Source: Pelomonas sp. Root1237 (lineage in GTDB: Bacteria; Pseudomonadota; Gammaproteobacteria; Burkholderiales; Burkholderiaceae_C). From it: 64,000 bases of DNA. The stretch spans positions 124,001 to 188,000 of the forward strand of contig NZ_LMDK01000018.1 of NCBI RefSeq assembly GCF_001425055.1, written 5' to 3'. Shown here in pieces: positions 28,952 through 54,516 of this stretch. Positions within the stretch are counted from its first letter, which is position 1, and the number at the start of each line of letters is the position of its first letter. The notes below the pieces were generated by a model. That model worked only from the letters and a program-made list of their open reading frames with translations, was not told the origin of the DNA and did not search any database. The translations under genes and the position numbers were made by a program.

Positions 28952-29419
28952 TCAACCGGCATAGCCCAAGGGCAATGCCGTCGTCAGCTTGAGTTCCTCC
29001 ATGGCGAAGCTGGAGCTGACGTCGCGCAGCTGAGTGCCGGCGATGAGGCGCTTGTAGACCCTGTCATAGGCGGCAATGTCGGGCACCACCACCCGCAGCA
29101 GATAGTCCACGTCGCCGCTCATGCGATAGAACTCGACGACCTCGGGGATGGCCTGCACCGTGGCCTTGAAGGTCTCGAACCAGTCCTGGCTGTGGGTGCT
29201 GGTGCGCACCGAGACGAAGACGGTGACGCCGACATTCACTTTCTGCGCGTCCAGCAGCGCCACCTGGCGTGTGATGACGCCCGATTCCTTCAGGCGCTGG
29301 ATGCGCCGCCAGCAAGGCGTCGTTGACAGGCCGACCTGCTGCGCCACCTCGGCCGTCTGAAGCTCGGCGTTCTGTTGAAGGATGTCGAGGATGCGGATGT
29401 CTATGGAATCCAGTTTCAT
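28952..29419 (-). CDS. Lrp/AsnC family regulator, DecR (CyuR)-like
   Basis: The 155-residue protein has an N-terminal helix-turn-helix (VAQQVGLSTTPCWRRIQRLKE) and a C-terminal RAM ligand domain. It closely resembles E. coli DecR/YbaO: the TTPCW turn, the RMSGDVDYLLRV strand and the final SSSFAMEELKLTTALP, where DecR has SSFAMEQIKYTTSLP. DecR senses cysteine and turns on cysteine detoxification. The gene is divergent from the persulfide fusion gene, which is a likely target. Confidence 0.88.
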   Translation of the reverse strand: MKLDSIDIRILDILQQNAELQTAEVAQQVGLSTTPCWRRIQRLKESGVITRQVALLDAQKVNVGVTVFVSVRTSTHSQDWFETFKATVQAIPEVVEFYRMSGDVDYLLRVVVPDIAAYDRVYKRLIAGTQLRDVSSSFAMEELKLTTALPLGYAG

Positions 29420-29474
29420 GGAATCGATCATATAAAGCATTGCATGCCCGGTCCGGGCGATTGAAAGCCGGCTT

Positions 29475-29491
29475 GCGCAAACCGTTTGTGC
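29475..29491. promoter_or_regulatory. Inverted repeat between the DecR-like gene and the fusion gene
   Basis: GCGCAAA (29475-29481) and TTTGTGC (29485-29491) match at 6 of 7 inverted positions across a CCG spacer. It lies in the 126-base divergent intergenic region, 55 bases before the fusion gene start. An operator for the DecR-like regulator is inferred. Confidence 0.4.
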
Positions 29492-29545
29492 CCGAAGCTG
29501 GCAACAATACCGCCAGCGCATCCCACTGCCGCAGCGGCCAGCACC

Positions 29546-31789
29546 ATGGAAATCTATCTCGACGCCAACGCCACCACGCCCGTCCTGCCGCAAGCCCGCG
29601 AAGCCGCCATGGCCGCGATGGCCGATGACTTCGGCAACCCCAGCAGCGTCCACAGCACCGGGCTGAAGGCGAGGGCGCTGATGGACGGCGTTCGGGCCCG
29701 TGCTCGCCGCGTGCTCGGGGCGAGTTCGGGCAAGCTGCTTTTCCTCAGCGGAGCGACGGAGGGCATCCAGACGGCCGTGCTGTCGGCGCTGAGCGCCTTG
29801 AGGGACGTGCCAACCCGGCCCAAGCTGCTGCTCTACGGCGCCACCGAGCACAAGGCGGTGCCCGAGGCCATCAAGCACTGGAATGCGCTGCTCGGCCTGA
29901 ACCTGCAGGTGCTGGCCATTCCCGTCGGCCGCGACGGCCGCCATGACCTCGCCTGGCTGCGCGAGCACGCACCGCGCGCCGGCCTCGTCTGCACGATGGC
30001 GGCCAACAACGAGACCGGCGTCATCAGCGATCTGGATGGCATCGAGCGGGCGCTTTCCGGCAGCGCGGCGCTGTGGATGGTGGACGGCGTGCAGGCCCTG
30101 GGCAAGCTGCCGCTGCGCCTGGCCGAGCGCCGCATCGACTTCGCGCCGTTCTCGGGCCACAAGCTCTACGCCCCCAAGGGTATCGGCCTGCTCTATGTGC
30201 GCGAAGGCGCACCGTTCACGCCGCTGCTGGCCGGCGGCGGCCAGGAGGGCGCGCTGCGCTCGGGCACCGAGAACATGTCCGGCATTGCCGCCCTGGGCGC
30301 CGTGCTGGCGGCGCTGGAGGACGGCAAGACCTTTCGCGATCACGCCACCCTCGTCGCCTTCCGCGACCGCCTGGCTGGCGCGCTGCAGCAGGCCTTCCCC
30401 GGCCTCGTGTTCAATGCACCGCCCGAGGTCTGCCTGCCGACGACGCTGAACTTCGCCGTGCCGGGTGTCAGCTCCAAGCTGCTGCTGGACCTTTTCGACG
30501 CTGCCGAGCTGCGCGTCAGCGGCGGCTCGGCCTGCAGCGCGGCCAAGGCGCAGCCCAGCTATGTGCTCGAAGCCATGGGCCTGCCGGCCTGGCAGACGGC
30601 CTCGGCCGTGCGGTTGTCCTTCGGCCCGGTGGCCGATGCCGCCTTCATCGACGAGGCCTGCGCTCGCATCCGCATCTGTGGCGAGTCCCTGCGCGAGAGC
30701 TGCCTGGACCCGAGCGCTCCCGGCCAGGCCCTGCCGGCCGATGGCCTGACGCGCTTCGTTGTCGATGGCGCCTGCTGCTATCTGCTGGCCGATGCCGCCA
30801 GCCGCCGTGCCGTTGTCGTCGACCCGTTGCCCGAGCTGACCGAACGCCTGGCTCAGTGGCTGACCTGCCAGGGTTATGAACTCGCCGCCGTGCTCGACAC
30901 CCACAGCCATGGCGACCACGCCTCGTCCGCGTCCGAGCTGCTCGCTGCCGCCGGCCAGTCGCGCGGTGATGTCGACGGCCTGGGCTGGCCAATCGGCGCC
31001 GACGCCATCGCGCTGGGCACCTCCCGGCTGAGCCGCATGCCGATTCCCGGCCACACCCAGGACTCGACGGCCTATCTGCTGTACGACGCGGGCGGATTGC
31101 GCCTGGCCTTCGTCGGCGACACCGTCATGCCCGGCGCCCTGGGCCGCAGCGACTTCGAACAGAGCGCGCCGCTGGCCTACGGCAGCTCGCTAGGCCGCCT
31201 GGAAAAGGCCGTCGGCCCCCACGCCCTGCTGCTGCCCGGTCACGACTACGACGACCGCTTCGCCAGCACGCTGGCCGTGGAGTGCGTCGCCCAGCCGCTG
31301 CTGGGCGACGTGCTGGGTGGCCGCATCGACGGCGCCGGCTTTGCGGCCGCCAAGGCCCAGCTGGAGCAGGGCCTGGCGCTGACCGAATACCAGACCGTGG
31401 CCTGCGGCGCGCGCGTCGACAGCGCTTGCCCGCTTGCTTCCAGCGAGATGAGCCTGGACGAACTGAATGACCTGCTGCGCGAGCACCCGCAGCTTCTGCT
31501 CGTCGATGTACGCGAGCCCTACGAGCAGCGCCTGGGCCAGGCGCCCGAGCTCGGCGCGGGCGTGCGCCGCGAGGCCGTGCCGCTGTCGGGCCTGCCCAAT
31601 GCGCTGGCACGCTGGCTGACCCTGCCGGCCGAGACGCCCATCGTCTTCTTCTGCCGCAGCGGCAACCGCAGCGCGCAAGCCGCGCAGGCTCTACGGCGGC
31701 TTGGGCATGAGCAGGCCTGGAGCCTGGGCGGTGGCCTGGCGCTGTGGCCGCGGGCGCTGGCCGGTGCCGACGCCGCGCTCGCCATCTGA
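29546..31789 (+). CDS. Three-domain fusion: cysteine desulfurase + persulfide dioxygenase + rhodanese
   Basis: The 747-residue protein joins three sulfur enzymes. Residues 1-385 are a class V aminotransferase of the NifS/IscS type, with PLP Lys206 in FSGHKLYAPKG and catalytic Cys330 in GGSACSAAK. Residues 400-630 are an ETHE1-like metallo-beta-lactamase domain: H453/H455/D457/H458 in THSHGDH, H503 in PGHT, D525 in VGDT, GRSDFEQ, and H566 in PGHDYDD. Residues 635-747 are a rhodanese with Cys703 in CRSGNRS. Together they could take sulfur from cysteine as persulfide, oxidise it to sulfite and form thiosulfate. No signal peptide is seen. Confidence 0.92.
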   Translation: MEIYLDANATTPVLPQAREAAMAAMADDFGNPSSVHSTGLKARALMDGVRARARRVLGASSGKLLFLSGATEGIQTAVLSALSALRDVPTRPKLLLYGATEHKAVPEAIKHWNALLGLNLQVLAIPVGRDGRHDLAWLREHAPRAGLVCTMAANNETGVISDLDGIERALSGSAALWMVDGVQALGKLPLRLAERRIDFAPFSGHKLYAPKGIGLLYVREGAPFTPLLAGGGQEGALRSGTENMSGIAALGAVLAALEDGKTFRDHATLVAFRDRLAGALQQAFPGLVFNAPPEVCLPTTLNFAVPGVSSKLLLDLFDAAELRVSGGSACSAAKAQPSYVLEAMGLPAWQTASAVRLSFGPVADAAFIDEACARIRICGESLRESCLDPSAPGQALPADGLTRFVVDGACCYLLADAASRRAVVVDPLPELTERLAQWLTCQGYELAAVLDTHSHGDHASSASELLAAAGQSRGDVDGLGWPIGADAIALGTSRLSRMPIPGHTQDSTAYLLYDAGGLRLAFVGDTVMPGALGRSDFEQSAPLAYGSSLGRLEKAVGPHALLLPGHDYDDRFASTLAVECVAQPLLGDVLGGRIDGAGFAAAKAQLEQGLALTEYQTVACGARVDSACPLASSEMSLDELNDLLREHPQLLLVDVREPYEQRLGQAPELGAGVRREAVPLSGLPNALARWLTLPAETPIVFFCRSGNRSAQAAQALRRLGHEQAWSLGGGLALWPRALAGADAALAI

Positions 31790-31824: not shown

Positions 31825-32904
31825 TCAAAGCCGGGCGGCGACCTCTTCGGCCAGGGCCAGCGAGGCCGTCAGCCCGGGCGACTCGATGCCGAACAGCTGC
31901 ACCAAGCCCGGCGTCGCGGTGTCGATGCGGAAGTCCGCCGCCGCCTCGCCCGGGCCGCTCAGCTTTGGCCGGATGCCGCTGTAGGCCGGCTGCAGCGCGC
32001 CCGCGGGCAGGCCCGGCCAGTAGCCGCGCACCTCGGCCTCGAAGGCCGGTGCCAGGGCAGGGTCGACGGCGTAGTCCAGCCTGGCCGGCGCGCGCTCGGT
32101 CAACCACTGCACATCAGGCCCGAAGCGCGCCTGGCCGCCCAGATCCAGCGTCAGATGCACACCCAGGCCGCCGTCTACCGGCAGCGGGTAGATCAAGTGC
32201 GAGAACGGCGCCCGTCCGGCGAGTGAGAAGTAGTGGCCGCGGGCAAAGCGCAGTGGTGGCACAGGCGTGCCCAGGGATTCAGCGACCTGCGCAGCAAACA
32301 GCCCAGCTGCATTGATGACGCAGCGCGCGCCCAGCTCGAAATCCTCCACCAGCAGCCGCCAGCCATCACCCTCCCGCGCGCCACCGGTCACCGCACTGGC
32401 CAGGGCCAGCGTCGCGCCGGCGTTCTCGGCGTCAGCCAGCAGGGCTGTCATCAGGCCATGGCTGTCGACGATGCCGCTGGACGGCGACAGCAGCGCACCC
32501 GCGGCGTTCAAGGCCGGCTCCAGCGCCAGCGTTTCGGTCCGACGCAGCAGGCGCAGGTCGTCAACGCCATTGGCCACGCCAGCCTCGGCGATCTGCTCCA
32601 GCCGCGGCAGGTCCTCGGCGCGTGTTGCCACCACCAGCTTGCCGCAGCGACTGTGCGCAATGCCGCGCGCCGCGCAGTAGTCGTAGAGCAGCATCTTGCC
32701 GCGCACGCACAGCCGCGCCTTCAGGCTGCCGGTTGGGTAGTAGAGGCCGGCGTGGATGACCTCGCTGTTGCGCGAGGAGATGCCCGTGCCGATGGCGCCA
32801 GCGGCCTCGATGACGACGACCTCACGCCCGCGCAGCGCCAGCTCGCGCGCGATCGCGAGGCCGACAACGCCGGCACCGATGACGGCAATATCCACCTGAT
32901 CCAT
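31825..32904 (-). CDS. FAD-dependent oxidoreductase, LhgO-like
   Basis: The 359-residue DAO-family flavoprotein begins [20 protein letters not shown], the FAD-binding fold, and has [25 protein letters not shown], typical of L-2-hydroxyglutarate oxidase/dehydrogenase proteins. The ending GIRPKLSG and [19 protein letters not shown] also fit. It probably oxidises L-2-hydroxyglutarate to 2-oxoglutarate and passes electrons to quinone or oxygen. It is convergent with the fusion gene and divergent from the MFS gene. Confidence 0.83.
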
Positions 32905-32962
32905 GAACGGAGTTTGCCTTGCCTAAAATGCGCGGCGCTTCGCGGCGAGTGCCGTGACGCCG

Positions 32963-33041
32963 TCTCTGCCGAGGGGTGCTGCGACGAGGGTCATGATGCC
33001 TTCGCCACGCTTGGTGAGGACGACAGGACAAGGGCGCCCTC
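32963..33041 (+). ncRNA. SAH-riboswitch-like leader upstream of a Bcr/CflA transporter
   Basis: The core GCCGAGGGGTGCTGCGAC matches the S-adenosylhomocysteine riboswitch core CCGAGGAGCGCTGCGAC. P1 forms from TCTC-GCCGAG (32963-32973) and CTTGGTGAGG (33010-33019). A P2 hairpin uses GCGA...TCGC. The pseudoknot pairs GGGTGCTG with GGGCGCCC (33032-33039), where known SAH switches pair GAGCGCTG with CGGCGCTC; the changes compensate at several positions. CACGCTTGG replaces the usual CAGGCTCGG, so ligand binding may be altered. The transporter ATG follows 20 bases later. Confidence 0.62.
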
Positions 33042-33061
33042 TGTGAAGAAGAGGCTCCCGC

Positions 33062-34261
33062 ATGCATTCCCCTCCCGCATCCCCTTCCGCATCGATACGC
33101 ACCATCCTGCCGCTGGCCTTCGTCACCGGCGTCAGCATGGCCGCGATGGATCTCTACCTGCCCGCCGTGCCGGCCCTGCAGGCCGGCATGGGCATCAGCG
33201 TGCCCTTGGCCCAGGCCACCGTGGCCGTCTACCTGGCCGGCCTGGCAGGCGCCCAACTGCTGTGGGGCGAGCTGCTGAACCGCCTCGGTCCGCGGCGCTG
33301 CGTCGAGGTGGGCCTGCTGCTGCTGGTGCTGACCAGCCTGGGCTGCGCTTTAGCGCCCAACATCGAGACGCTGCTGGTGCTGCGCCTGCTGCAGGGTGTG
33401 TCAGCCGCGGCGGCGACGGTGGTGGCGCCGACCGTCGTACGCGCCACGCTGGCCGATGCCGACGTGGTGCGCGGCATCGCCGCCATCTCCATGGTCGAGG
33501 CCATCGTGCCTGCTGCCGGCCCCGTGCTGGGCGCGCTGATGCTGCGCGTGACGGACTGGCGCGGCACCTTCTGGGTGCTGGCGGCCCTGGCCCTGCTGTT
33601 GCTGCCGTGGGTGGTGAAGATCGCGCCGCGCAGGCTGCCCGGGCTCAACCTCGAGCACGACGCCGGCTATCTCGGCATCCTGCGCAACCGCAGCTATCTG
33701 CGGCTGGCCGGTTCGCATGCGCTGTGCATCGGTGCGCTGCTGACCTTCCTGGCCAGCGCGCCCCAGCTGCTGCAGCACACCCTGGGCTTGGGCACGGCGG
33801 CATTCGCGCTGCTGCAGGTGCTGGGTGTCGGCTCCTTCATGCTGGGCGCCTCGCAGTCTGGCCGGCTGGCCGCGCACCTGGGCCATGCGCGCGTCGTGAG
33901 GCTGGGCAGCGTGGTGCAGCTGGTGGCCTGCACGCTGGCCCTGCTGGCCGCCTGGAGCGGGCAGCAGCTGCCTTATGCGGCGGTGGCGGCCTACTGGATG
34001 TGCTTCTGCGGCGCCCTGGCCATTCGCGGGCCGGCGACCTTCGTCGATGCCCTGGCGCTGCCGCCCGCCCAGATGGGCCGCGCGACGGCCCTGCTGGTGC
34101 TGGCCCTGTTGGCGGCAGGCGCCGTCGGCACGCAGCTGGTGGCGCCCTTCCTCGGGCATGCGGACAGCGCTGTGCCGGTGTTCGCTGGCGTGCTGATCCA
34201 GCTGCTGGTCAGCGCGGCGCTGGTATGGCGCTATCCCGTCGTGCAGCCGGTCAAGGCTTGA
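33062..34261 (+). CDS. Bcr/CflA family MFS efflux transporter
   Basis: The 399-residue transporter has about 12 membrane helices. MDLYLPAVPAL in helix 1 and GELLNRLGPRRCVEVGLLL in loop 2-3 are typical of Bcr/CflA drug:H+ antiporters, as is RLLQGVSAAAATVVAPTVVR in helices 4-5. Substrates in the family include bicyclomycin, chloramphenicol and small thiols or amino acids such as cysteine. The ATG is 9 bases after GAAGAAGAGG. The upstream riboswitch-like leader suggests control by a methylation by-product. Confidence 0.9.
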   Translation: MHSPPASPSASIRTILPLAFVTGVSMAAMDLYLPAVPALQAGMGISVPLAQATVAVYLAGLAGAQLLWGELLNRLGPRRCVEVGLLLLVLTSLGCALAPNIETLLVLRLLQGVSAAAATVVAPTVVRATLADADVVRGIAAISMVEAIVPAAGPVLGALMLRVTDWRGTFWVLAALALLLLPWVVKIAPRRLPGLNLEHDAGYLGILRNRSYLRLAGSHALCIGALLTFLASAPQLLQHTLGLGTAAFALLQVLGVGSFMLGASQSGRLAAHLGHARVVRLGSVVQLVACTLALLAAWSGQQLPYAAVAAYWMCFCGALAIRGPATFVDALALPPAQMGRATALLVLALLAAGAVGTQLVAPFLGHADSAVPVFAGVLIQLLVSAALVWRYPVVQPVKA

Positions 34262-45832: not shown

Positions 45833-48800
45833 TCACACCGGCGTGGCGGTGACCCGCAGCAGCGGCGCCTCGCGGCCGACCGGGTCGACCAGCACCAGCG
45901 CCAGCTGCAAGGCCGGCACAGGCGGCACGGCAGGCACGGCACGCTCGATGACGAGGTCCAGCGCGCCGCTGTCCAGCGGCACCGCGGCAGCCTCGGGCGC
46001 CCAGTCGCCGTCATCCAGCTTCAGATGCACCTGCACCCTGAAGCCGCCCACCGCGCGTGGGTGAGCCACCGGGCCGCCGCGGATCGCCAGCGTCAGCCGC
46101 CACGTGCCGGCTGCGGCACCGGCGCCTACCGTTGCCGTCACGCTGCCGTCCGGCAACGCCGGGATATCCGCCGGCACGAACATGGCCATCGCGGGCGCGG
46201 ACGCGCTGCTGAACGCGCCCGGCGCGTCCAGGCGCTGCGCCGGCTGCAGCGGCTCGACGGCGCCGGCGGGTAGCGGGATCTCGGCCACGCCAGGCGGCAG
46301 GCGGCGCTCGGGCGGCATGCGCAGCTCGGCCCAGTAGTGGTAGCGCACATAGGCGCTCAAGCCCTCGGGCGTTGGCGAGTCGTCCACCTCGGCGACGAAC
46401 TCCCCGCCGTCGCGCCGCAGCACGCCGCGGCCGATCTCGCGGGCGTAGAGCGCCTCGGGCACGCCGCCGCTGGCGCGCCGCAGCCGGTACTCGGGCGGCT
46501 GCGCGTCCGCGGCCGGTGGTTCGTCGAACAGGCCCGGCTCGGCGGCGCGCAGCGCCACCAGGTCCAGGCCCGGCGCGCGCACCGTGACGGTGGCCACGCC
46601 GCTGACCGGGTCGACGCGGGTCTCCACGCGCGGTGCGGGCGGGCGCCGGTCGCTGGGCACGGCCACCGGCAGCAGCGGGCAGCTCTCGAATGCGGCCTCG
46701 TTGCCCTGGCTGCTGAGTGGCACGAAGCGCAGGAACTGCACGGTCTCCAGCGCCCGCGGCAGGCGCGTGTCGAACAGCACGCTGCCATCGCCGCCGGGCG
46801 TCAGCGGCGTGTCGGTGAGCAGGCGGAAACGGTCGCGCAACCCCAAGCCCGCCAGGCCCTGCTGCGCGCCGTCGACGGCCACCTCGGCGCGGGTGCGCGG
46901 CCGCTCGCCCTCCATCAGCGCGATGCCCAGTCCACGCGCATCCGCCAGGTAGGCGCGGTAGCGGGCGCCGGCCACGCCGGTGAAGCGCAGCCGGAACTCG
47001 ACATCGGTCGCCGGCGCCGGGCGGCTGCTCCAGACGATGGCGATGCCCGTCTGCGGCACCGGCGGCGTGCGCGGGTCGTGGAGGGCGATGGTCGCTGCCA
47101 CGGTGGGGCCGGGGGTGCCCGCGTCATCTTCGAAATGGGCGGTCGCGGTGACGGCACGGCTTTCCATCGGCAGCAGCGCCGGCAGCTCGAAGTCGAAGTG
47201 CAGCACGCCGCCGTCCTGCGGCGCCGCGGCGGCCTGCAGTGCTCCATCAAGGTCGATCACGACGCGCGACAAGGGCCGCGAGCCGGCCGTCATCTCGTGC
47301 AGCGCGGGCACCACCACCGACCAGCGCACGCTGCCGGCCACGGCCGCCGCGTCGCCAGCCGCCCGCCCGACCAGTTGCAGGTGTGAGCGCAGCACCGGCT
47401 GCGGCATGGGCGGCCGCGGCGGCGTCGGCACGACGACCTCGGTCGCTGCGCCGAAGCGGCCGAACACGTCGGCCAGGGCCACGCGGTAGCTCCAGGGCGC
47501 GTTGCCGGCGTCGATGTTGGCATCTGACACGATGCCGAAGACGCCGTCGTGCAGCTTGTCGGCGTTGCCCAGCATGCGCGGGGCGGCGCGCTCGGCGGGG
47601 TCGGCATCGGGCGTGGCGGGGGTCAGGTCCACCATGTCATGGCGCGTGCGCCAGCCGTCGACCTCCAGCCGGCCCAGCGCCACCAGCGTGGCCAGCGCCG
47701 GCGTGGCGATGCGCAGCTGCTGGCGGAACCGAATGCTCGGCCCCTCGTCCTCGCGCTGCCAGCCGGCATCGCCCAGCAGCACCTCGGGTGCGGCTGGCAG
47801 GTCGGGCGGCGGCGCGGCCAAGGCGGTGGCCACGAAGGCACGCAGCGTCAGCCCATGGCGCTGCACGGCCAGTTCGGCCGGGCCGCGCAGCCCAGGTTGC
47901 AGTTGCATCAGCCGCTCGATCAGTTCCAGTTCCGTCGCGTCGGCGTCTGGCAGCTCGAAGCGCATGGCCGGGCCGACGGCAAACAAGCCCGCCGCCAGCC
48001 AGCCGCGCGCGCCGGGTGGCTGGAACGGGTTGTCAGGCACGAGCAGGTTGTCCAGCAGCGTGGCGGTGCCCAGGTACCGCCCTGCGCCAGGGTCCAGCGC
48101 CTTCATCAGCAGGCTGCCCTGCACCCATTCGGTGGCGCGCTGCCACGGCCGGCGCTTGCCGTTGAGGGCCACAGCAGCCTCCCAGAGGTGTGTGCGCTGT
48201 ACCAGCGACGGCGGCTTCTCCGCGTCGCCCACCAGGCGTTGGGTGTCGTCGTCCAGGTCGGCCTGCAAGGCGGCCACGCGCGCGCGTTCGGCCGACGCAG
48301 GCAGGGCATCGAACGGACCGTCGGGCCGGTCAGGCCGGGTCCAGCGCTCCGGTGCGCCGCGCTCGGCGCGCGCGAGCGCAACCGCGGTGCCTTCGCCGCC
48401 GGCATACCAGGGCTGGTCGCCCTCGATGGGTAGCGACAGGCTGGCGAAGGGCTGTTGGCCGAGCAGTGCCTCGATCGCCCGCCCGGCCGAGATCCCCCAG
48501 CCCTGCAGCGTGACCCGGCCGCGGCCGCGCAGCCGCAGGCCGGTGATCTGCGGTGCGGCCACCAGCCAGCGCGGCGAAGACCGTGCCGCCACGACGCGGC
48601 TGCCGCTGCGGTCGAGCAGGGCCAGCTCGCCGCTGCCCTGGAAGCGCGCCTCGATGCCGGCCACGCGGGCGTCGCTGGGCGCCTCGAGCTGGCGGCGGCC
48701 GATGAGCTGGCCGCCCCCGATGTCGAGGTTCAGCGCGGGCAGCAGCCGGCCGTCGCGGGCGAACCAGTCCATGGCCGGCGCATCGGTCGCGGACGCCTCC

Positions 48801-48958
48801 ACCGGCCACACCAGAAAGGGCGCCAGTGGAAAGCCGAGGGCCGCCGACGGGAACAGGCGCAGATGCGTGCCCTTGGGCAGGTCGGGGTCGGGGGCGACGA
48901 TGCCGGCCGCCGCCGCGTGGGCCGAGAAATAGCGAGGGTCAACGAGCCAGCTGTTCAT
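45833..48958 (-). CDS. Giant protein of unknown function, partner of the 1767-aa protein
   Basis: The 1041-residue product has no signal peptide or membrane helix. It begins MNSWLVDPRYFSAHAAAAGI. The first 400 residues are mixed; the remainder looks like consecutive beta-sandwich (fibronectin III-like) domains, for example VRWSVVVPALHE, TGIAIVWSSRPAPATDVEFRL and a final TWRLTLAIRGG-VQVHLKLDDGDW. I recognise no catalytic motif. Its ATG overlaps the stop of the upstream giant gene by four bases, so the two are coupled. Function unknown. Confidence 0.8.
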   Translation of the reverse strand: MNSWLVDPRYFSAHAAAAGIVAPDPDLPKGTHLRLFPSAALGFPLAPFLVWPVEASATDAPAMDWFARDGRLLPALNLDIGGGQLIGRRQLEAPSDARVAGIEARFQGSGELALLDRSGSRVVAARSSPRWLVAAPQITGLRLRGRGRVTLQGWGISAGRAIEALLGQQPFASLSLPIEGDQPWYAGGEGTAVALARAERGAPERWTRPDRPDGPFDALPASAERARVAALQADLDDDTQRLVGDAEKPPSLVQRTHLWEAAVALNGKRRPWQRATEWVQGSLLMKALDPGAGRYLGTATLLDNLLVPDNPFQPPGARGWLAAGLFAVGPAMRFELPDADATELELIERLMQLQPGLRGPAELAVQRHGLTLRAFVATALAAPPPDLPAAPEVLLGDAGWQREDEGPSIRFRQQLRIATPALATLVALGRLEVDGWRTRHDMVDLTPATPDADPAERAAPRMLGNADKLHDGVFGIVSDANIDAGNAPWSYRVALADVFGRFGAATEVVVPTPPRPPMPQPVLRSHLQLVGRAAGDAAAVAGSVRWSVVVPALHEMTAGSRPLSRVVIDLDGALQAAAAPQDGGVLHFDFELPALLPMESRAVTATAHFEDDAGTPGPTVAATIALHDPRTPPVPQTGIAIVWSSRPAPATDVEFRLRFTGVAGARYRAYLADARGLGIALMEGERPRTRAEVAVDGAQQGLAGLGLRDRFRLLTDTPLTPGGDGSVLFDTRLPRALETVQFLRFVPLSSQGNEAAFESCPLLPVAVPSDRRPPAPRVETRVDPVSGVATVTVRAPGLDLVALRAAEPGLFDEPPAADAQPPEYRLRRASGGVPEALYAREIGRGVLRRDGGEFVAEVDDSPTPEGLSAYVRYHYWAELRMPPERRLPPGVAEIPLPAGAVEPLQPAQRLDAPGAFSSASAPAMAMFVPADIPALPDGSVTATVGAGAAAGTWRLTLAIRGGPVAHPRAVGGFRVQVHLKLDDGDWAPEAAAVPLDSGALDLVIERAVPAVPPVPALQLALVLVDPVGREAPLLRVTATPV

Positions 48959-51900
48959 GCGGCCTCCTGGGCAAAACTGGGCTGCAGCGGAACTTCAAGC
49001 AGCCCCTGCAACGGCTTGGGTGGCAGGCCGATGGGCTGGTCGGTGCAATGCAGGCGCAGCCTGGGCATGACCCACGCGAAGCCGATGCCGCGCCGCGTGC
49101 GCCGCGGCACGAAGGGCGCGGACGCGGCGAACAGCAGCCGCGAACCGCTGCGGTCACGCAGCCGCACGTTGAAGTTGGCGCTGTTGGCGCCGCTCACGAG
49201 TTGCAGGTCGGTCACATCGAAACGGCCGTCTCGGTGCACCGGTTCGGGCGATTCGATCAGCGCGCCGGCACACAGCCAAGGTGTTCCCGCGGCCACCGGC
49301 GGCAGCCACAGCAGGCTGATGCGCGGCTCGGCGGCGGCGGGCCAGCCGTCCATCCCGAGGCTGTCGAGGAAGGCATCGAAGGCGGCGTCGTCACCCTTGC
49401 TGACCTGCGCGGCCAACACCGTGCCGGGCTGCAGCGCCACGTCGCCCTGCGGGTGACCAGCCAGGCCACTGATCGGGAAGTGCAGGCCCGCCAGCATCTC
49501 GGTGCCGGTGGCCCAGCGCGAGGTGCGAAAGCTCACGCCGGGCAGCCGCCCGTCCGCCACGCCTTCCCGCTTTGACTTGGCCAGCGCGAACACCTCGTAC
49601 CAGGTGTCGCGCGTGAGCGTCACGTCCACGCGCAGCTCGGCCACGTTGGGCGCCAGTCCGCAGGTCGAGGCGAGATAGGCATTGGCGATGAGGGCGGCGC
49701 TGCCGGCCAATTGTGTGGTGCTGGTGACCCAGGCGAGCTTGGGCACGAGCAGCTGGTCGGGCTCCACCTCCTCGGGCTGGTCGAGCCGGCGCAGGCCGCA
49801 CAGCAGCTCGTACTTGTAGGCGGCGGCCAGCAGCGCCACGTGGCCCGGTGCGAAGCGCATGCGCACGGGGTCGTGGGCAAACCGGTGCAGTTCGCTCTGC
49901 GCGGGCTCATAGCCCAGCAGGTAGCGCTGGAGCATGGCCGGGTCAAAGAAATCGCGCTTGCGGTGAATCAGGTCGAGATAGGCATGCGTGCTGGGTGCCG
50001 GCTTGCCGCCCGCCCCGAGCAGCGGCGCGGTGCGAAACCAGTAGCTGCGCACGCTGTCGGTCGTGCCATCGGCGGCTTGTGGCACCAGCACCTGCTTTTG
50101 GCCCTTGTCATCCACCTCGTACAGCGTGCCGGACCAGCGCATGCGCACATCGATGCGGTACAGCCGCCCGGGGTCGAGCACGGCGCGGCGCGTTGTCGAT
50201 GGCTTTGCGTCGGCCTTGGGCGGTCCGTCGTCGGCAGCCTTTTTCTGCTTGGCCGCTTCGGCAGCCGTGGCGGCATTGCGCGCCGCAGCGGCAGCGGCGG
50301 CCGACAGCGTGATGCCGCCCAGCGCCAGCAAGCCCAGCCGCGTCCCTGCGACGCAGCTCGCCTCGATGAGCTTGACGGCGCCGTCGGCGGGCGGCAGCCA
50401 GCGCACGGCCAGCCAGCCGTCGCCCAGATCCGCTTGCAGATCGGGTGCCCAGCGGCGCGCCAGGTCGTCGACGACGACAAAGGGCCGCGCCCCGGCGGCA
50501 TTGGCCTGCCAGTCGGTGGCGCGCACCACCAGCCACAGGCGCGGCTGCGTCAGCGCCTCGTCGGGCACGATGCGCAGGTCGTGCCGCGGCTGCACGCGCT
50601 GGAAGGCGAAGTCGATGCGCGGCGTGAACTGCACGGCGCCGGGGTCGAGCCAGGCGTTGAACTGCCGCCCGTCCAGCGACTGCGGCGCGAACGGCCACAC
50701 GCGCGGGCCGGTGTATCCCATGTGCAGGGGCAGCAGGTTCGCCGCGGTCTTGTCGAGCACGACGGGGGCTAGCGCGGGCTGCGTCAGCAAAAGCTCCACG
50801 CGCGCCCGCACCTGGCTTTGCAGCGGGTCGGCGCTGTGCGGGTCGGGCGGCAACCGGAAACCACTGCCTTCGCGCGCGGCCGAGCCGCCCAGCGCCCAGC
50901 CGAAATGTGCATCCGCCCGCAGATGACAGATGTCGGCGAGCTCCTGCAGCGGCTTTCCCGCCACGCCTGCGCCCGCGTCGCCCACCGCATGCATCCACGG
51001 GTCGCGAAAGGGCGTCAGCAATAGCAGCTCGGCCGGCTGCGGCTGGCCGCCGGCATTGCCATGCTTGCCTCCGTGCCAGGCACTGCTGAAGGGCCCGGCG
51101 ACCACCACGTCGGCCTCGGTGGCGTCGATCAGCGCCACGTCCAGCAGCTCCCAGTCGTAGCTGAGCAGATCGCTGCCGAGGGGCTTGGCACGCAAGCCCT
51201 CGGGGTAGCCGCCGGCATCGGGGAATTGCGCCGAGGCGAACGACAGCTTGGGCGCGGTGCTGAAGGCCAGCAGCGGGATGCTGTCGGGCCACACCGCACT
51301 CTCGGACGTCGCATCCTCGGGCTTGGTGGCCAGCGGCGCCAGGCGGTGGTATTGGTCGTCCACCAGCGAATGCCCGTGGCCATCCAGCGGGTGCTCGGGC
51401 TCGGGCACCTTGTCCTTGGGCGACGGGCTGCCGTACTCCAGCGTCACGCACTTGCGGATCTCGTCGAAGAACAGGTCGATGCTGCCGCACAGCTCGGCCT
51501 TCACGTGTGGGTCGGAACCGTCCACCAGCACGACGTTGATGGTCGCGTCGATGCCCACCGAGAAGATGCCGATGTGCAGCCCGCCGCCGATGGTGCCCGC
51601 GCCGACGAAGCTCATCGGGTGCGTCGCCACCAGGATGTCGGCCCGCGCGAACACGTCCGCCCAGACCACGGGCTTGAAGCCATAGACGATGTCAAAGCCG
51701 ACGCCGAAGGCAAGGACGAAGCTGCCCGGGGCGGCGCAGAAGGTGCCGCCGCGCGGCCAGTTGTTGATGCCGTTGCCGCGGATCATCAAATAGGCGTCGG
51801 AGCTCTGGCCCACGATGTCGGGCAGGAAGATGGAGCGCACCGGGCCGCGCTCACGGCTTTCGGCGGGGTAACCGTCGGCGCCCAGATGGATGAACCAGTC

Positions 51901-54258
51901 CGCTGATTCCGTCGGGAAATGCGCGCCCACGGGCACCGTGGTGGTGACGATGTGCGGGATCTTGTACTCGCCCTCGACGGCGATGGTGACGCCGTCGGCC
52001 GGGTCCACCAGGATGACGCCCTTGGCCTGCAGCAGCGACAGGTCGTTGCCGCCGCGTGCGATCTTCATGCGCGGGCCCATGTAGCGGCCTTCGACCGAGC
52101 CGCGCACGATGATGTCCGGTGTGGTCACGAACAGGCCGGCACGGGCGCTGAAGGTAAAGCCCATGTCCGGCGCCGTGCCGATGACGGCCTCCAGGCCGAA
52201 GCTGAAGGCGCCCGTTTCCTCCACGAACATGCCCGCTTCGCGGTAGTCCCAGTCCAGCGCCGCCTGCACCGGGTCATCGCCCGGCGGCACCGGCTTGGGC
52301 TTGGCGTTGATCGCGAACATGCCGCCCACGCCGTAGATCGCCAGGCCCGAGTTGGCCAATGGCAGCGGGCCAGGCAGGTCCACGCCCAGCGCCAGCTTGA
52401 GCATCTCGCCTTCGGTCTCGATCTCGGCGCTCGCGCCCAGCTTGCCCAGAGGCATGATGCTGGCTTCCATCGCGGCGCGGAAGCCATTGGGCGTCAGCAT
52501 CACCGCGCCGCTGCCGGTGATCATGGGCTGCAGCGCGATCGACGCTTCCAGCCCGCGCAGCTCGCCGCTGAGCTTGCCGTTCTCGTCGAGCGTGCCGCGG
52601 ATGGTGCAACCGCTGACCTTCACCGGCCCCAGGTCGAGCTTGAAGCGCAGGTCCACTTCGATCCACATCGAGCCGCGGCCCGAGCGTGTGCCCAGCACGT
52701 CGAAGAGCGAGCCCGGCCCCTGCACCAGCCAGCCGCCGGGGTCCTCCACCTCCATCGAGCTGCGGGCGTAGTCGAGATGGAATTTCTCCAGCCCGGGCTT
52801 GTCGGGGAAGATGCTCAGCACCACCTCGCGCACCCGCACGCGCAGCGGCTGGTTGGGCTGCATCTGCACCGACAGCACACCCACGTCGATGCCCGTGACG
52901 GTGGCCGCCACCGAATAGTCGAGCTTCAACCGCACCGCGTCGCCGCCCGGCAGCTTGGCACCGCTGCTGATCAGCTCCGCGCCGTGCAGCACCAGCTCGC
53001 CGTGCTCCAGGAAGCTCGACAGCCCCGTGGCCGCCACCAGCAGCGTCTGCAGCACCACGCCGCTGTTGTCGCCGCCGGGCGGCGGTGGCTGCTGGGCAAT
53101 CAGCGCGGTGGCCAGCGTGGCCGCGGTGACGGCGATCTTGGCGCCCAGGCCGCCGGGCGTGCTGTCGATCTTCAGCAGCCCGTCCGGCCCCTGGCTTTCC
53201 AGCGCCAGGCTCATTTCAGACGCGGGCGCCGCGCCGGCCGATCCCGGCTTGCGCGCATAGCGCAGCCGCGCCAGCACCGGCGTGCCGGCCGCAAACGTCA
53301 GCGCGTGGCCGAAGTTCTCGGTGCGGCCATTCAGTGGCAGCTCCATCACCGCCTCGACCAACGTGGGCACGAAGCCGTCCAGCCCCGTCGCCGTGGGGTC
53401 GCGGCATTCGATGCGCACGGCAATGGCCGGCCGGTCGCCGTCGGCCGGCACCTGGGCATTCACGATGAGGTCGATGCCCGGCGTGGGCGGCAGGCCGAGC
53501 TGCAGCCAGGCGTCCACCGCATGGCCGCCGAGGAAAGGCACGCCCTGGGGCAGGAAGAAGCGCGCGCGGTTGACGGCAATGCCCTGCCAGGCGGGCGCGT
53601 CCGCAGGCGTGGCAAGCGCAACGCCGTCGACAACCACGCCGTCCGCCGGCCCGGCCTCGCTGGAAAAGTCCAGCACGATGCCGTGCGTGAACTCGAACCC
53701 GAAGGTGGTGCCACCCAACAGCACCGTGGGCGGCTGCACCTGCAGCACGACGACGTCGTCAGGCGCCTCGCGGTTGGGCGACAAACTCAGCTTGACGCTG
53801 CCACCGGCCTGCCCCTGCAGCACCAGGAACAGGCCCTGGCCGACGAGTTGCACCGGCGGGTTGCCCGGGGCGGCCGTCAGCGACTGGCCGTCTGCCGCCA
53901 GCGTGGCCGCCACCAGGCCGTGCGATGCCACCGAGCGCGCCAGGTTGAATAGCGGCCGCTGCGCGCCTTCCTCGAGCGACACCGCCAGCCGGAAGCCCGT
54001 GCGCGCGCCAGGCGCGCCGTCGAAGGACAGGAAATAGTCGCGTTCGGGAACCGCTTCAGGCGGCGGCACCAGGTGCAGGTTGAAGACACCCAGCGCCTGC
54101 TCGTCCGCGGCCAGCAACATCCTGCCTTCTTCGGTCTGATCGGACAGCACCGTGGTGGAGACGATCTGCAGCGTGGACAGCAGCGCGTCCACCGGCACGC
54201 TGGTGATGAGCTGGGCCAGCAGCTTTTCGTCGGACAGATGTTGTCTGGTGCTCTTCAT
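48955..54258 (-). CDS. Giant protein with DUF6603-like region
   Basis: The 1767-residue product begins MKSTRQHLSDEKLLAQLITSV at ATG 54258 behind AGGGACGT; ATG 54288 is possible. It has no signal peptide. Residues about 630-950 resemble DUF6603: SGLAIYGVGGMFAINAKPKP, FSFGLEAVIGTAPDMGFTFS, LFVTTPDIIVRGSVEGRYMG and similar alternating strands. A Pro/Glu hinge follows near 950, then beta-rich segments and one helical Ala/Lys stretch near 1330-1350. DUF6603 proteins are large and uncharacterised. A shell, scaffold or cargo role is a guess. Confidence 0.78.
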   Translation of the reverse strand: MKSTRQHLSDEKLLAQLITSVPVDALLSTLQIVSTTVLSDQTEEGRMLLAADEQALGVFNLHLVPPPEAVPERDYFLSFDGAPGARTGFRLAVSLEEGAQRPLFNLARSVASHGLVAATLAADGQSLTAAPGNPPVQLVGQGLFLVLQGQAGGSVKLSLSPNREAPDDVVVLQVQPPTVLLGGTTFGFEFTHGIVLDFSSEAGPADGVVVDGVALATPADAPAWQGIAVNRARFFLPQGVPFLGGHAVDAWLQLGLPPTPGIDLIVNAQVPADGDRPAIAVRIECRDPTATGLDGFVPTLVEAVMELPLNGRTENFGHALTFAAGTPVLARLRYARKPGSAGAAPASEMSLALESQGPDGLLKIDSTPGGLGAKIAVTAATLATALIAQQPPPPGGDNSGVVLQTLLVAATGLSSFLEHGELVLHGAELISSGAKLPGGDAVRLKLDYSVAATVTGIDVGVLSVQMQPNQPLRVRVREVVLSIFPDKPGLEKFHLDYARSSMEVEDPGGWLVQGPGSLFDVLGTRSGRGSMWIEVDLRFKLDLGPVKVSGCTIRGTLDENGKLSGELRGLEASIALQPMITGSGAVMLTPNGFRAAMEASIMPLGKLGASAEIETEGEMLKLALGVDLPGPLPLANSGLAIYGVGGMFAINAKPKPVPPGDDPVQAALDWDYREAGMFVEETGAFSFGLEAVIGTAPDMGFTFSARAGLFVTTPDIIVRGSVEGRYMGPRMKIARGGNDLSLLQAKGVILVDPADGVTIAVEGEYKIPHIVTTTVPVGAHFPTESADWFIHLGADGYPAESRERGPVRSIFLPDIVGQSSDAYLMIRGNGINNWPRGGTFCAAPGSFVLAFGVGFDIVYGFKPVVWADVFARADILVATHPMSFVGAGTIGGGLHIGIFSVGIDATINVVLVDGSDPHVKAELCGSIDLFFDEIRKCVTLEYGSPSPKDKVPEPEHPLDGHGHSLVDDQYHRLAPLATKPEDATSESAVWPDSIPLLAFSTAPKLSFASAQFPDAGGYPEGLRAKPLGSDLLSYDWELLDVALIDATEADVVVAGPFSSAWHGGKHGNAGGQPQPAELLLLTPFRDPWMHAVGDAGAGVAGKPLQELADICHLRADAHFGWALGGSAAREGSGFRLPPDPHSADPLQSQVRARVELLLTQPALAPVVLDKTAANLLPLHMGYTGPRVWPFAPQSLDGRQFNAWLDPGAVQFTPRIDFAFQRVQPRHDLRIVPDEALTQPRLWLVVRATDWQANAAGARPFVVVDDLARRWAPDLQADLGDGWLAVRWLPPADGAVKLIEASCVAGTRLGLLALGGITLSAAAAAAARNAATAAEAAKQKKAADDGPPKADAKPSTTRRAVLDPGRLYRIDVRMRWSGTLYEVDDKGQKQVLVPQAADGTTDSVRSYWFRTAPLLGAGGKPAPSTHAYLDLIHRKRDFFDPAMLQRYLLGYEPAQSELHRFAHDPVRMRFAPGHVALLAAAYKYELLCGLRRLDQPEEVEPDQLLVPKLAWVTSTTQLAGSAALIANAYLASTCGLAPNVAELRVDVTLTRDTWYEVFALAKSKREGVADGRLPGVSFRTSRWATGTEMLAGLHFPISGLAGHPQGDVALQPGTVLAAQVSKGDDAAFDAFLDSLGMDGWPAAAEPRISLLWLPPVAAGTPWLCAGALIESPEPVHRDGRFDVTDLQLVSGANSANFNVRLRDRSGSRLLFAASAPFVPRRTRRGIGFAWVMPRLRLHCTDQPIGLPPKPLQGLLEVPLQPSFAQEAA

Positions 54259-54516
54259 ACGTCCCTGCCTCGCCTTGCTGCGGCCCATGCATGCGCCGGC
54301 CTAGGCGGCGGACTGTTGGACGTGGGGCGAGCGGGCGCCATCCCGCAGAACACAGGGCGGGAGCGGGCAGTTGGGCGGCCCTCCATGGCCGCGCGCGCCG
54401 GTGCACTCCGGCGCCTTCATCAATCGGGAGGAAGAGGGGCGTGCTGGGGTATGCGCGAAGCCGCGCCGTTAGCAGAAGAGGAAGAAGGCGAGGGCGTGCA
54501 GCGCCGGGTCAGCCCC
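54259..54516. other. Intergenic region upstream of the giant genes
   Basis: These 258 bases hold no gene. A 7-bp hairpin, GCGCCGG-TGCACT-CCGGCGC, lies at 54395-54414 without a T-run. It may end the upstream binding-protein transcript. No clear promoter was seen. Confidence 0.5.

Follow-up and report, generated by a model that had tools for sequence, protein, structure and literature searches.

Within a 64,000-nucleotide stretch of Pelomonas sp. Root1237 (hereafter the window), we analyzed two divergent genes at 28952-31789. We consider it rather probable that they form a cysteine-inducible, cysteine-degrading unit of the DecR/CcdR kind, in which the sulfur of cysteine would pass through a rhodanese (Rhd) domain to a persulfide dioxygenase (PDO) domain and leave as sulfite. 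One gene codes for an Lrp/AsnC-family regulator resembling DecR of E. coli, and the other for a single polypeptide in which a cysteine desulfurase (CD), a PDO and an Rhd domain follow one another. Judged by sequence, such a unit would probably turn excess cysteine into sulfite in place of releasing toxic hydrogen sulfide. What appears to be new is the insertion of the PDO and the three-domain enzyme that it makes; related two-part enzymes are already known. The coding features are as follows.

28952..29419, minus strand: DecR-like Lrp/AsnC-family regulator, 155 amino acids, divergent from the fusion (Pfam, comparison with DecR)
29546..31789, plus strand: CD-PDO-Rhd fusion, 747 amino acids, frame from the ATG at 29546 to the stop at 31789
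29546..30700, plus strand: CD domain, residues about 1-385 (H102, D180, Q183, K206, R238, C330)
30731..31426, plus strand: ETHE1-type PDO domain, residues about 396-627, assigned from residues and from sequence and fold matches (H453, H455, D457, H458, H503, D525, R534, D536, H566, Y568, C620)
31430..31786, plus strand: Rhd domain, residues about 629-747 (loop CRSGNRS with C703)

The three domains of the fusion

The sequence-only reading of this DNA had described a 747-residue polypeptide of three consecutive sulfur enzymes. The frame and the Pfam domains bear this out (Aminotran_5 at 3-366, Lactamase_B at 411-469, Rhodanese at 637-734; all above the curated cut-offs), and the key residues that it had named (Lys206, Cys330, THSHGDH at 452-458, H503, D525, H566 and Cys703) all lie where it had placed them. 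An AlphaFold2 model of the whole chain, made from an alignment of 60 sequences including that of the window, had a mean predicted local distance difference test score (pLDDT) of 88.2 and a predicted TM-score of 0.85. The 50 PDB entries listed as its fold matches were desulfurases (Nfs1, IscS, NifS) and selenocysteine lyases.

For comparison, 113 distinct fusion proteins were assembled, including that of the window; L107 and L118, truncated where the locus ends, and L095, where the fusion is split across two frames, were excluded. They were classed by seven metal-site residues of the PDO (intact, at least six of the seven kept; decayed, five or fewer; absent, CD-Rhd). The NifS/IscS-type desulfurase family is defined by its pyridoxal phosphate (PLP) lysine, its loop cysteine and the His, Asp and Gln of its PLP site, and all six such residues checked were kept in 113/113 rows. 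The window fusion did not reach the cut-off of the NCBIfam equivalog model for NifS (TIGR03402; 268.6 against 530.75 bits), and by sequence its CD domain is NifS-like, not NifS itself. In the Rhd domain, two residues checked, and likewise the Cys of the active loop, were conserved throughout the 113 rows; the loop reads CRSGNRS in 65 of the 67 rows with an intact PDO. All seven metal-site residues were kept in 67/67 intact rows. As the full set is thus kept in 67 of 113 distinct fusions, the observation is not a product of chance.

The identity of the inserted domain was examined by sequence, fold and residues. The PDO-Rhd part matched known PDOs best: the PDO-rhodanese protein BpPRF of Burkholderia phytofirmans at 1.4e-23, 4ysb at 6.4e-18 and human ETHE1 at 3.6e-15. 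Matches to hydroxyacylglutathione hydrolases were at 7.1e-9 or weaker; 2gcu (6.7e-11) bears a hydrolase name, and we take it to be plant ETHE1. When residues 396-747 were modelled separately from 42 sequences (pLDDT 89.8) and used in a fold search, BpPRF came first and the first glyoxalase II appeared only at rank 23. Ranks 1-22 were taken up by PDOs, by PDO-rhodanese proteins and by metallo-beta-lactamase-fold entries to which no function is assigned (3tp9, 3r2u, 4efz, 2gcu); 3r2u, at ranks 13-15 and 21, is presumably CstB. The window protein and 67/67 intact rows have the 2-His-1-Asp iron site and the THxHxDH motif. The PDO-specific residues R534, D536 and Y568 are also present in the window protein, and Arg, Asp and Tyr occur together in 62 of the 67; their roles, the Arg and Tyr in the glutathione binding common to PDO types and the Asp as a paired residue, are those given in passages of PMC6060420. 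In 22 close pairs of intact copies the median ratio of nonsynonymous to synonymous substitution rates (dN/dS) was 0.12 for CD, 0.154 for PDO and 0.17 for Rhd; in eight decayed pairs the corresponding values were 0.10, 0.27 and 0.17. As far as such ratios indicate, the PDO of intact copies is under purifying selection.

The divergent regulator and the intergenic palindrome

The divergent gene had been called strikingly DecR-like, and the comparison agrees: the regulator has 47% identity with E. coli DecR, against 38% with Lrp. Among 14 Lrp-like places of its own genome it is also the best match of DecR (47%; next 38%), while the best match of E. coli Lrp is a different gene (L124, 59%). The orthology is read from a one-way search of this genome, with DecR and Lrp as the E. 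coli proteins compared. The closest solved structure, 3i4p, is labelled merely as an AsnC-family regulator.

Within the fetched flanks, a gene related to the regulator at 50% identity or more lay near 53 of the 67 intact, 20 of the 24 CD-Rhd and 4 of the 22 decayed fusions. In the 53 intact cases it was placed upstream on the opposite strand in 46 (at 3.4 kb in L090), upstream on the same strand in four and downstream in three. In a sample of 399 genomes of the family, the fusion was present in 61, the regulator (E 1e-40) in 72 and both in 41 (Fisher p 1.5e-21, uncorrected for kinship). The regulator was also searched (matches at 1e-30) in 24 fusion genomes, mostly those without a regulator nearby; a match of at least 70% was found in G104, where it adjoins the intact fusion, and in G392, G181 and G269, and the others reached 44% at most.

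What the regulator faces elsewhere was examined at 35 loci (L253-L287), comprising 28 of the 31 genomes with the regulator only and seven further loci from fusion-bearing genomes. The divergent partner in the 28 fusion-less genomes was a cystathionine beta-lyase in seven, an amino-acid racemase in seven, a gamma-glutamyltranspeptidase in three and none of these in 11. At the seven further loci it was a major facilitator superfamily (MFS) transporter in four, a racemase in one and none of these in two. Hence the partners number seven lyases, eight racemases of the Asp/Glu type, four MFS transporters and three transpeptidases (22/35). The lyase or the transpeptidase faces the regulator in 10/28 fusion-less genomes, which fits cysteine sensing. 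Because the same type of regulator is paired with different cysteine-degrading enzymes in enterobacteria (passages of PMC5423876), the fusion seems to stand in for the enzyme of an already known type of unit. The idea of a conserved operon that extends past this gene pair was rejected, as the scanned neighbours vary between loci.

It may be noted that a phosphatidylserine decarboxylase gene lies close upstream of the fusions L110 and L158 (decayed) and L165 and L166 (CD-Rhd), with a UPF0176-rhodanese gene downstream of the fusion in L110. Frames common to about 20 of the 36 regulator-less loci, among the matches listed, suggest the same decarboxylase neighbourhood in more loci.

Motif sampling of 59 intergenic regions gave a 15-bp palindrome, tGGAATnnnATTCCa, of 10.3 bits, against 7.0-7.4 bits in 12 shuffled sets, which leave kinship among the regions uncorrected. 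Its matches next to the regulator gene in the window are the following.

29435..29449, no strand: operator-like box 1, AAGCATTGCATGCCC, centre 23 bp before the regulator ATG, score 8.8
29476..29490, no strand: operator-like box 2, CGCAAACCGTTTGTG, centre 64 bp before the regulator ATG, weak, score 3.7
29404..29418, no strand: extra matrix match, TGGAATCCAGTTTCA, over the regulator start codon and adjoining box 1, score 12.4

In most intact loci the palindrome is centred 23 bp before the regulator start, often with a second, weaker box at about 64; its positions are more variable in CD-Rhd loci. Across 36 intact loci, the mean information per column was 0.77 and 0.62 for the two boxes, against 0.36 for other columns. 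In the held-out regulator loci, the palindrome matched at p < 0.05 in 22/35 (200 letter shuffles each). Within the window, six other places outscore box 1, 29404-29418 among them. A matrix match of 13.9, such as occurs about once per 100 kb of background, lies upstream of E. coli decR. The region upstream of E. coli cyuP contains GAGAATGAATATTCT, the same sequence as the L175 box, as was spotted post hoc; a palindrome before cyuP has perfect 6-bp arms, but a 4-bp spacer.

A 7-bp inverted repeat had also been noted between the genes, without coordinates. Inverted repeats are indeed present, and several could be meant: a repeat search of 29400-29560 gave a single pair with overlapping 10-nt arms, 90% complementary, at 29469-29484, and a 6-bp pair, GCCCGG-T-CCGGGC, is readable at 29446-29458. 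The recurrent palindrome boxes overlap both. A terminator scan of 29300-29700 found none.

Distribution and history of the inserted domain

A scan of a collection of species genomes gave 411 stretches that encode a relative. The best 80 of the 411, which were kept, include Pelomonas, Roseateles, Variovorax, Comamonas and Acidovorax; of those that carry a name, Pelomonas sp. Root1217 (94%) is the nearest. In the sample of its own family the fusion was matched at E 1e-90 in 61/399 genomes, and in a class-wide sample at 1e-75 in 1/369, its own genome only. The check proposed earlier, of databases for the three-domain order and its neighbours, thus led to one bacterial family, with a DecR-like regulator near 77 of the 113 fusions.

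By the seven metal-site residues, the PDO was intact in 67 of the 113 rows, decayed in 22 and absent in 24; length alone gave 68, 21 and 24. In a rooted tree of the desulfurase, built from the 98 fusions left once near-copies were taken out and from 10 outgroup rows (108 rows in all), 17 CD-Rhd rows branched first. One clade held all intact forms, together with decayed forms and six further CD-Rhd rows, and a constraint of all CD-Rhd rows to one clade was rejected (approximately unbiased test, p-AU 0.005). A rhodanese tree, which had too few columns, agreed in that five CD-Rhd rows were basal, the remaining ones being scattered. One gain of the PDO with repeated loss would be the simplest reading of these sequences; it falls short of proof because the outgroup is distant and four of the five backbone supports are only 84-90.

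In L226 (contig 201 of G016), two short frames lying side by side resemble the end of the fusion's PDO and its rhodanese at 54-63% identity; this is probably a broken second copy, and it falls inside the clade of fused PDOs. In the window itself, a convergent gene for a flavin-dependent (FAD) oxidoreductase (DAO) and an MFS transporter gene lie downstream of the fusion at 31825-34261. Farther away, at 45833-54288 on the minus strand, two very long frames, one of 1041 codons and the other of 1777, adjoin each other; neither has a Pfam domain over the cut-off, and the longer one shows a weak DUF6603 match.

Proposed route of sulfur and related systems

By homology, the regulator would bind the palindromic boxes in the intergenic region and turn the fusion on when cysteine is present. 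The CD domain would then transfer the sulfur of cysteine to Cys330, leaving alanine. Cys703 of the Rhd domain is predicted to accept this sulfur, as in the homologous CD-Rhd enzyme, and to hand it to glutathione, and the PDO would oxidize the glutathione persulfide to sulfite. The Rhd domain may also join sulfite and a further persulfide to thiosulfate. Cysteine would thus be removed with little free hydrogen sulfide. Since the Rhd cysteine acts as the acceptor in the characterized CD-Rhd, the chemical order is probably CD, Rhd, PDO, unlike the order in the chain, a correction to the sequence-only reading. Its proposal of a cysteine-induced unit gains in part, from the active-site residues, the DecR-like regulator, the recurrent operator-like palindrome and the sulfur-amino-acid partners in some sister genomes. 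A stronger version can be held only tentatively: a single-chain cysteine-to-sulfite machine, whose Rhd arm ferries persulfide, perhaps protein-bound, from CD to PDO with no free hydrogen sulfide, the PDO having been inserted once into a cysteine-inducible CD-Rhd and later lost several times.

Several observations weigh against the proposed unit. A regulator relative was absent from the fetched flanks of 14 of the 67 intact and 18 of the 22 decayed fusions (two of the 18, L108 and L114, had flanks of less than 500 bases). None of the four partners was found at 13/35 regulator loci, and the racemase and MFS partners are neutral, by themselves no pointer to cysteine. Box 2 of the window is weak, a consensus scan of 29300-29700 found no sigma-70-like promoter, and the published 23-bp CyuR motif, as given in passages of PMC11408624, is another sequence than the palindrome found here. 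The fused PDOs form a clade of their own, on a stem of about 3 changes per site, apart from other PDO and glyoxalase rows. The PDO was decayed or missing in 46/113 fusions while CD and Rhd stayed, and is therefore dispensable. In 74/74 fusion genomes checked there was a further PDO homologue, either type I or type II. The fused PDO is hence best seen as a local, co-regulated one, and the suggestion that the unit limits persulfide stress is weakened.

Two patterns were examined and set aside. Loss of the regulator as a cause of PDO decay would fit the 18/22 against 14/67, yet independent contrasts did not support it. The fused PDO as the sole one of its genome was excluded, as each of the 74 genomes has at least one separate homologue. 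Replacement had been suggested by genes for a type I PDO or a PDO-rhodanese protein apart from the fusion, which were found in 5/40 intact-fusion genomes (among them G104, which holds an intact and a decayed fusion), 9/10 decayed and 20/24 CD-Rhd genomes. By the Blh model, the remaining 35/40 intact-fusion genomes have a type-II-like PDO, none above the model cut-off. The 23 genomes without a Blh-type match each have a type I PDO or a PDO-rhodanese gene, and some genomes have both. Independent contrasts on the separate PDOs pointed in the same direction in about four pairs, too few for significance (p 0.125).

Three other functions were weighed. It is rather unlikely that the fusion supplies persulfide to other proteins, for sulfur trafficking or for their persulfidation, while the PDO only trims the excess: the CD-Rhd enzyme of Pseudorhodoferax does persulfidate roGFP2 with cysteine (reported in passages of PMC8931425), and regulator-less fusions persist elsewhere, such as those near the decarboxylase gene or, in L110, also a UPF0176-rhodanese gene, but a DecR-like regulator accompanies most intact fusions, enzymes that degrade sulfur amino acids are among the other partners of this regulator, and the genome has a separate desulfurase-like gene (a 415-codon frame, 32% identical). 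It also seems unlikely that the inserted domain, of metallo-beta-lactamase fold, is not a PDO but acts as a thioesterase-like hydrolase or simply as a spacer. The long stem would suit this, as would repeated decay in which the domains on either side survive; so would the order of the NCBIfam matches, GloB (2.4e-14) ahead of Blh (8.7e-7), both below cut-off, the Blh dioxygenase model (NF040641; 28.1 against 625 bits) being that of another PDO type with an extra domain. Against it stand the solved structures nearest to the domain, which are PDOs, the PDO-specific Arg, Asp and Tyr, and the purifying selection on intact copies.

Very improbable, finally, is a use of thiosulfate, in which Rhd and PDO would turn thiosulfate sulfur into sulfite for assimilation as in BpPRF, with cysteine as a secondary donor. 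The PDO-Rhd order is that of BpPRF, the best PDB match, and the title of the BpPRF paper, known from reference lists, reportedly names a role in sulfur assimilation. The CD residues are, however, invariant in 113/113 rows, and cysteine normally shuts off the assimilation genes. Moreover, the characterized CD-Rhd prefers cysteine (passages of PMC8931425).

If the cysteine-degrading unit is what we propose, DecR/CcdR cysteine resistance would gain a branch outside the studied gamma-Proteobacteria, one not ending in hydrogen sulfide. A physiological role would also be suggested for CD-Rhd, the core of the cysteine sensor CyReB. The natural series of no, intact and decayed PDO lets the contribution of the dioxygenase be probed.

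The closest kin of the window fusion is the CD-Rhd of Pseudorhodoferax (WP_056898193.1), an already characterized two-domain enzyme of the same family (PMC8931425), with the same CD and Rhd domains in the same order, but without a dioxygenase between them. According to passages of PMC8931425, it was termed the most efficient desulfurase so far, its Rhd Cys is the acceptor, and, with glutathione or mercaptoethanol, a change of this cysteine lowered the desulfurase activity about ten-fold. The main text of that paper contains none of the words Lrp, AsnC, operon, regulator and dioxygenase. Its catalytic cysteines, Cys334 and Cys466 (given in passages of PMC12319549), are found exactly so in four of the 24 CD-Rhd rows, L167, L169, L170 and L171, which belong to one genus, by inference Pseudorhodoferax. 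Each has a DecR-like gene divergent from it, and L167, L169 and L171 branch beside the three-domain clade (L170 was omitted from the tree as a near-copy). In passages of open PubMed Central full text, to which the search was confined (subscription literature lay outside its scope), no description of a CD-PDO-Rhd protein was recognized. As CD-Rhd enzymes of this family are already characterized, the novelty lies in the PDO insert alone and does not extend to sulfurtransferase fusions led by a desulfurase.

BpPRF (5ve3-5ve5) has PDO followed by Rhd, as in the C-terminal part of the window fusion, of which it is the best sequence and fold match. Unlike the window fusion, it is without a desulfurase, and superposition of the two domains was poor (rmsd about 16). 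The PDO-rhodanese proteins of relatives form a clade apart from the fused PDOs, in a tree without BpPRF itself. CstB of Staphylococcus aureus, reportedly a multidomain persulfide dioxygenase-sulfurtransferase in hydrogen sulfide detoxification, resembles the window fusion in being such a multidomain protein; to our knowledge it has no desulfurase and a different regulator.

On the side of the regulator, the nearest systems are DecR/CyuR-CyuPA of E. coli and CcdR-CcdA or DecR-CdsH of Pantoea and Salmonella, in which, as here, an Lrp-family regulator goes with a cysteine-degrading partner. Passages of PMC5423876 describe the CcdR-CcdA type, with the regulator adjacent to its partner, as limited to gamma-Proteobacteria, and the same type of regulator as paired with varied cysteine-degrading enzymes in enterobacteria. 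The known partners of these systems release sulfide, whereas the partner in the window is a desulfurase fusion.

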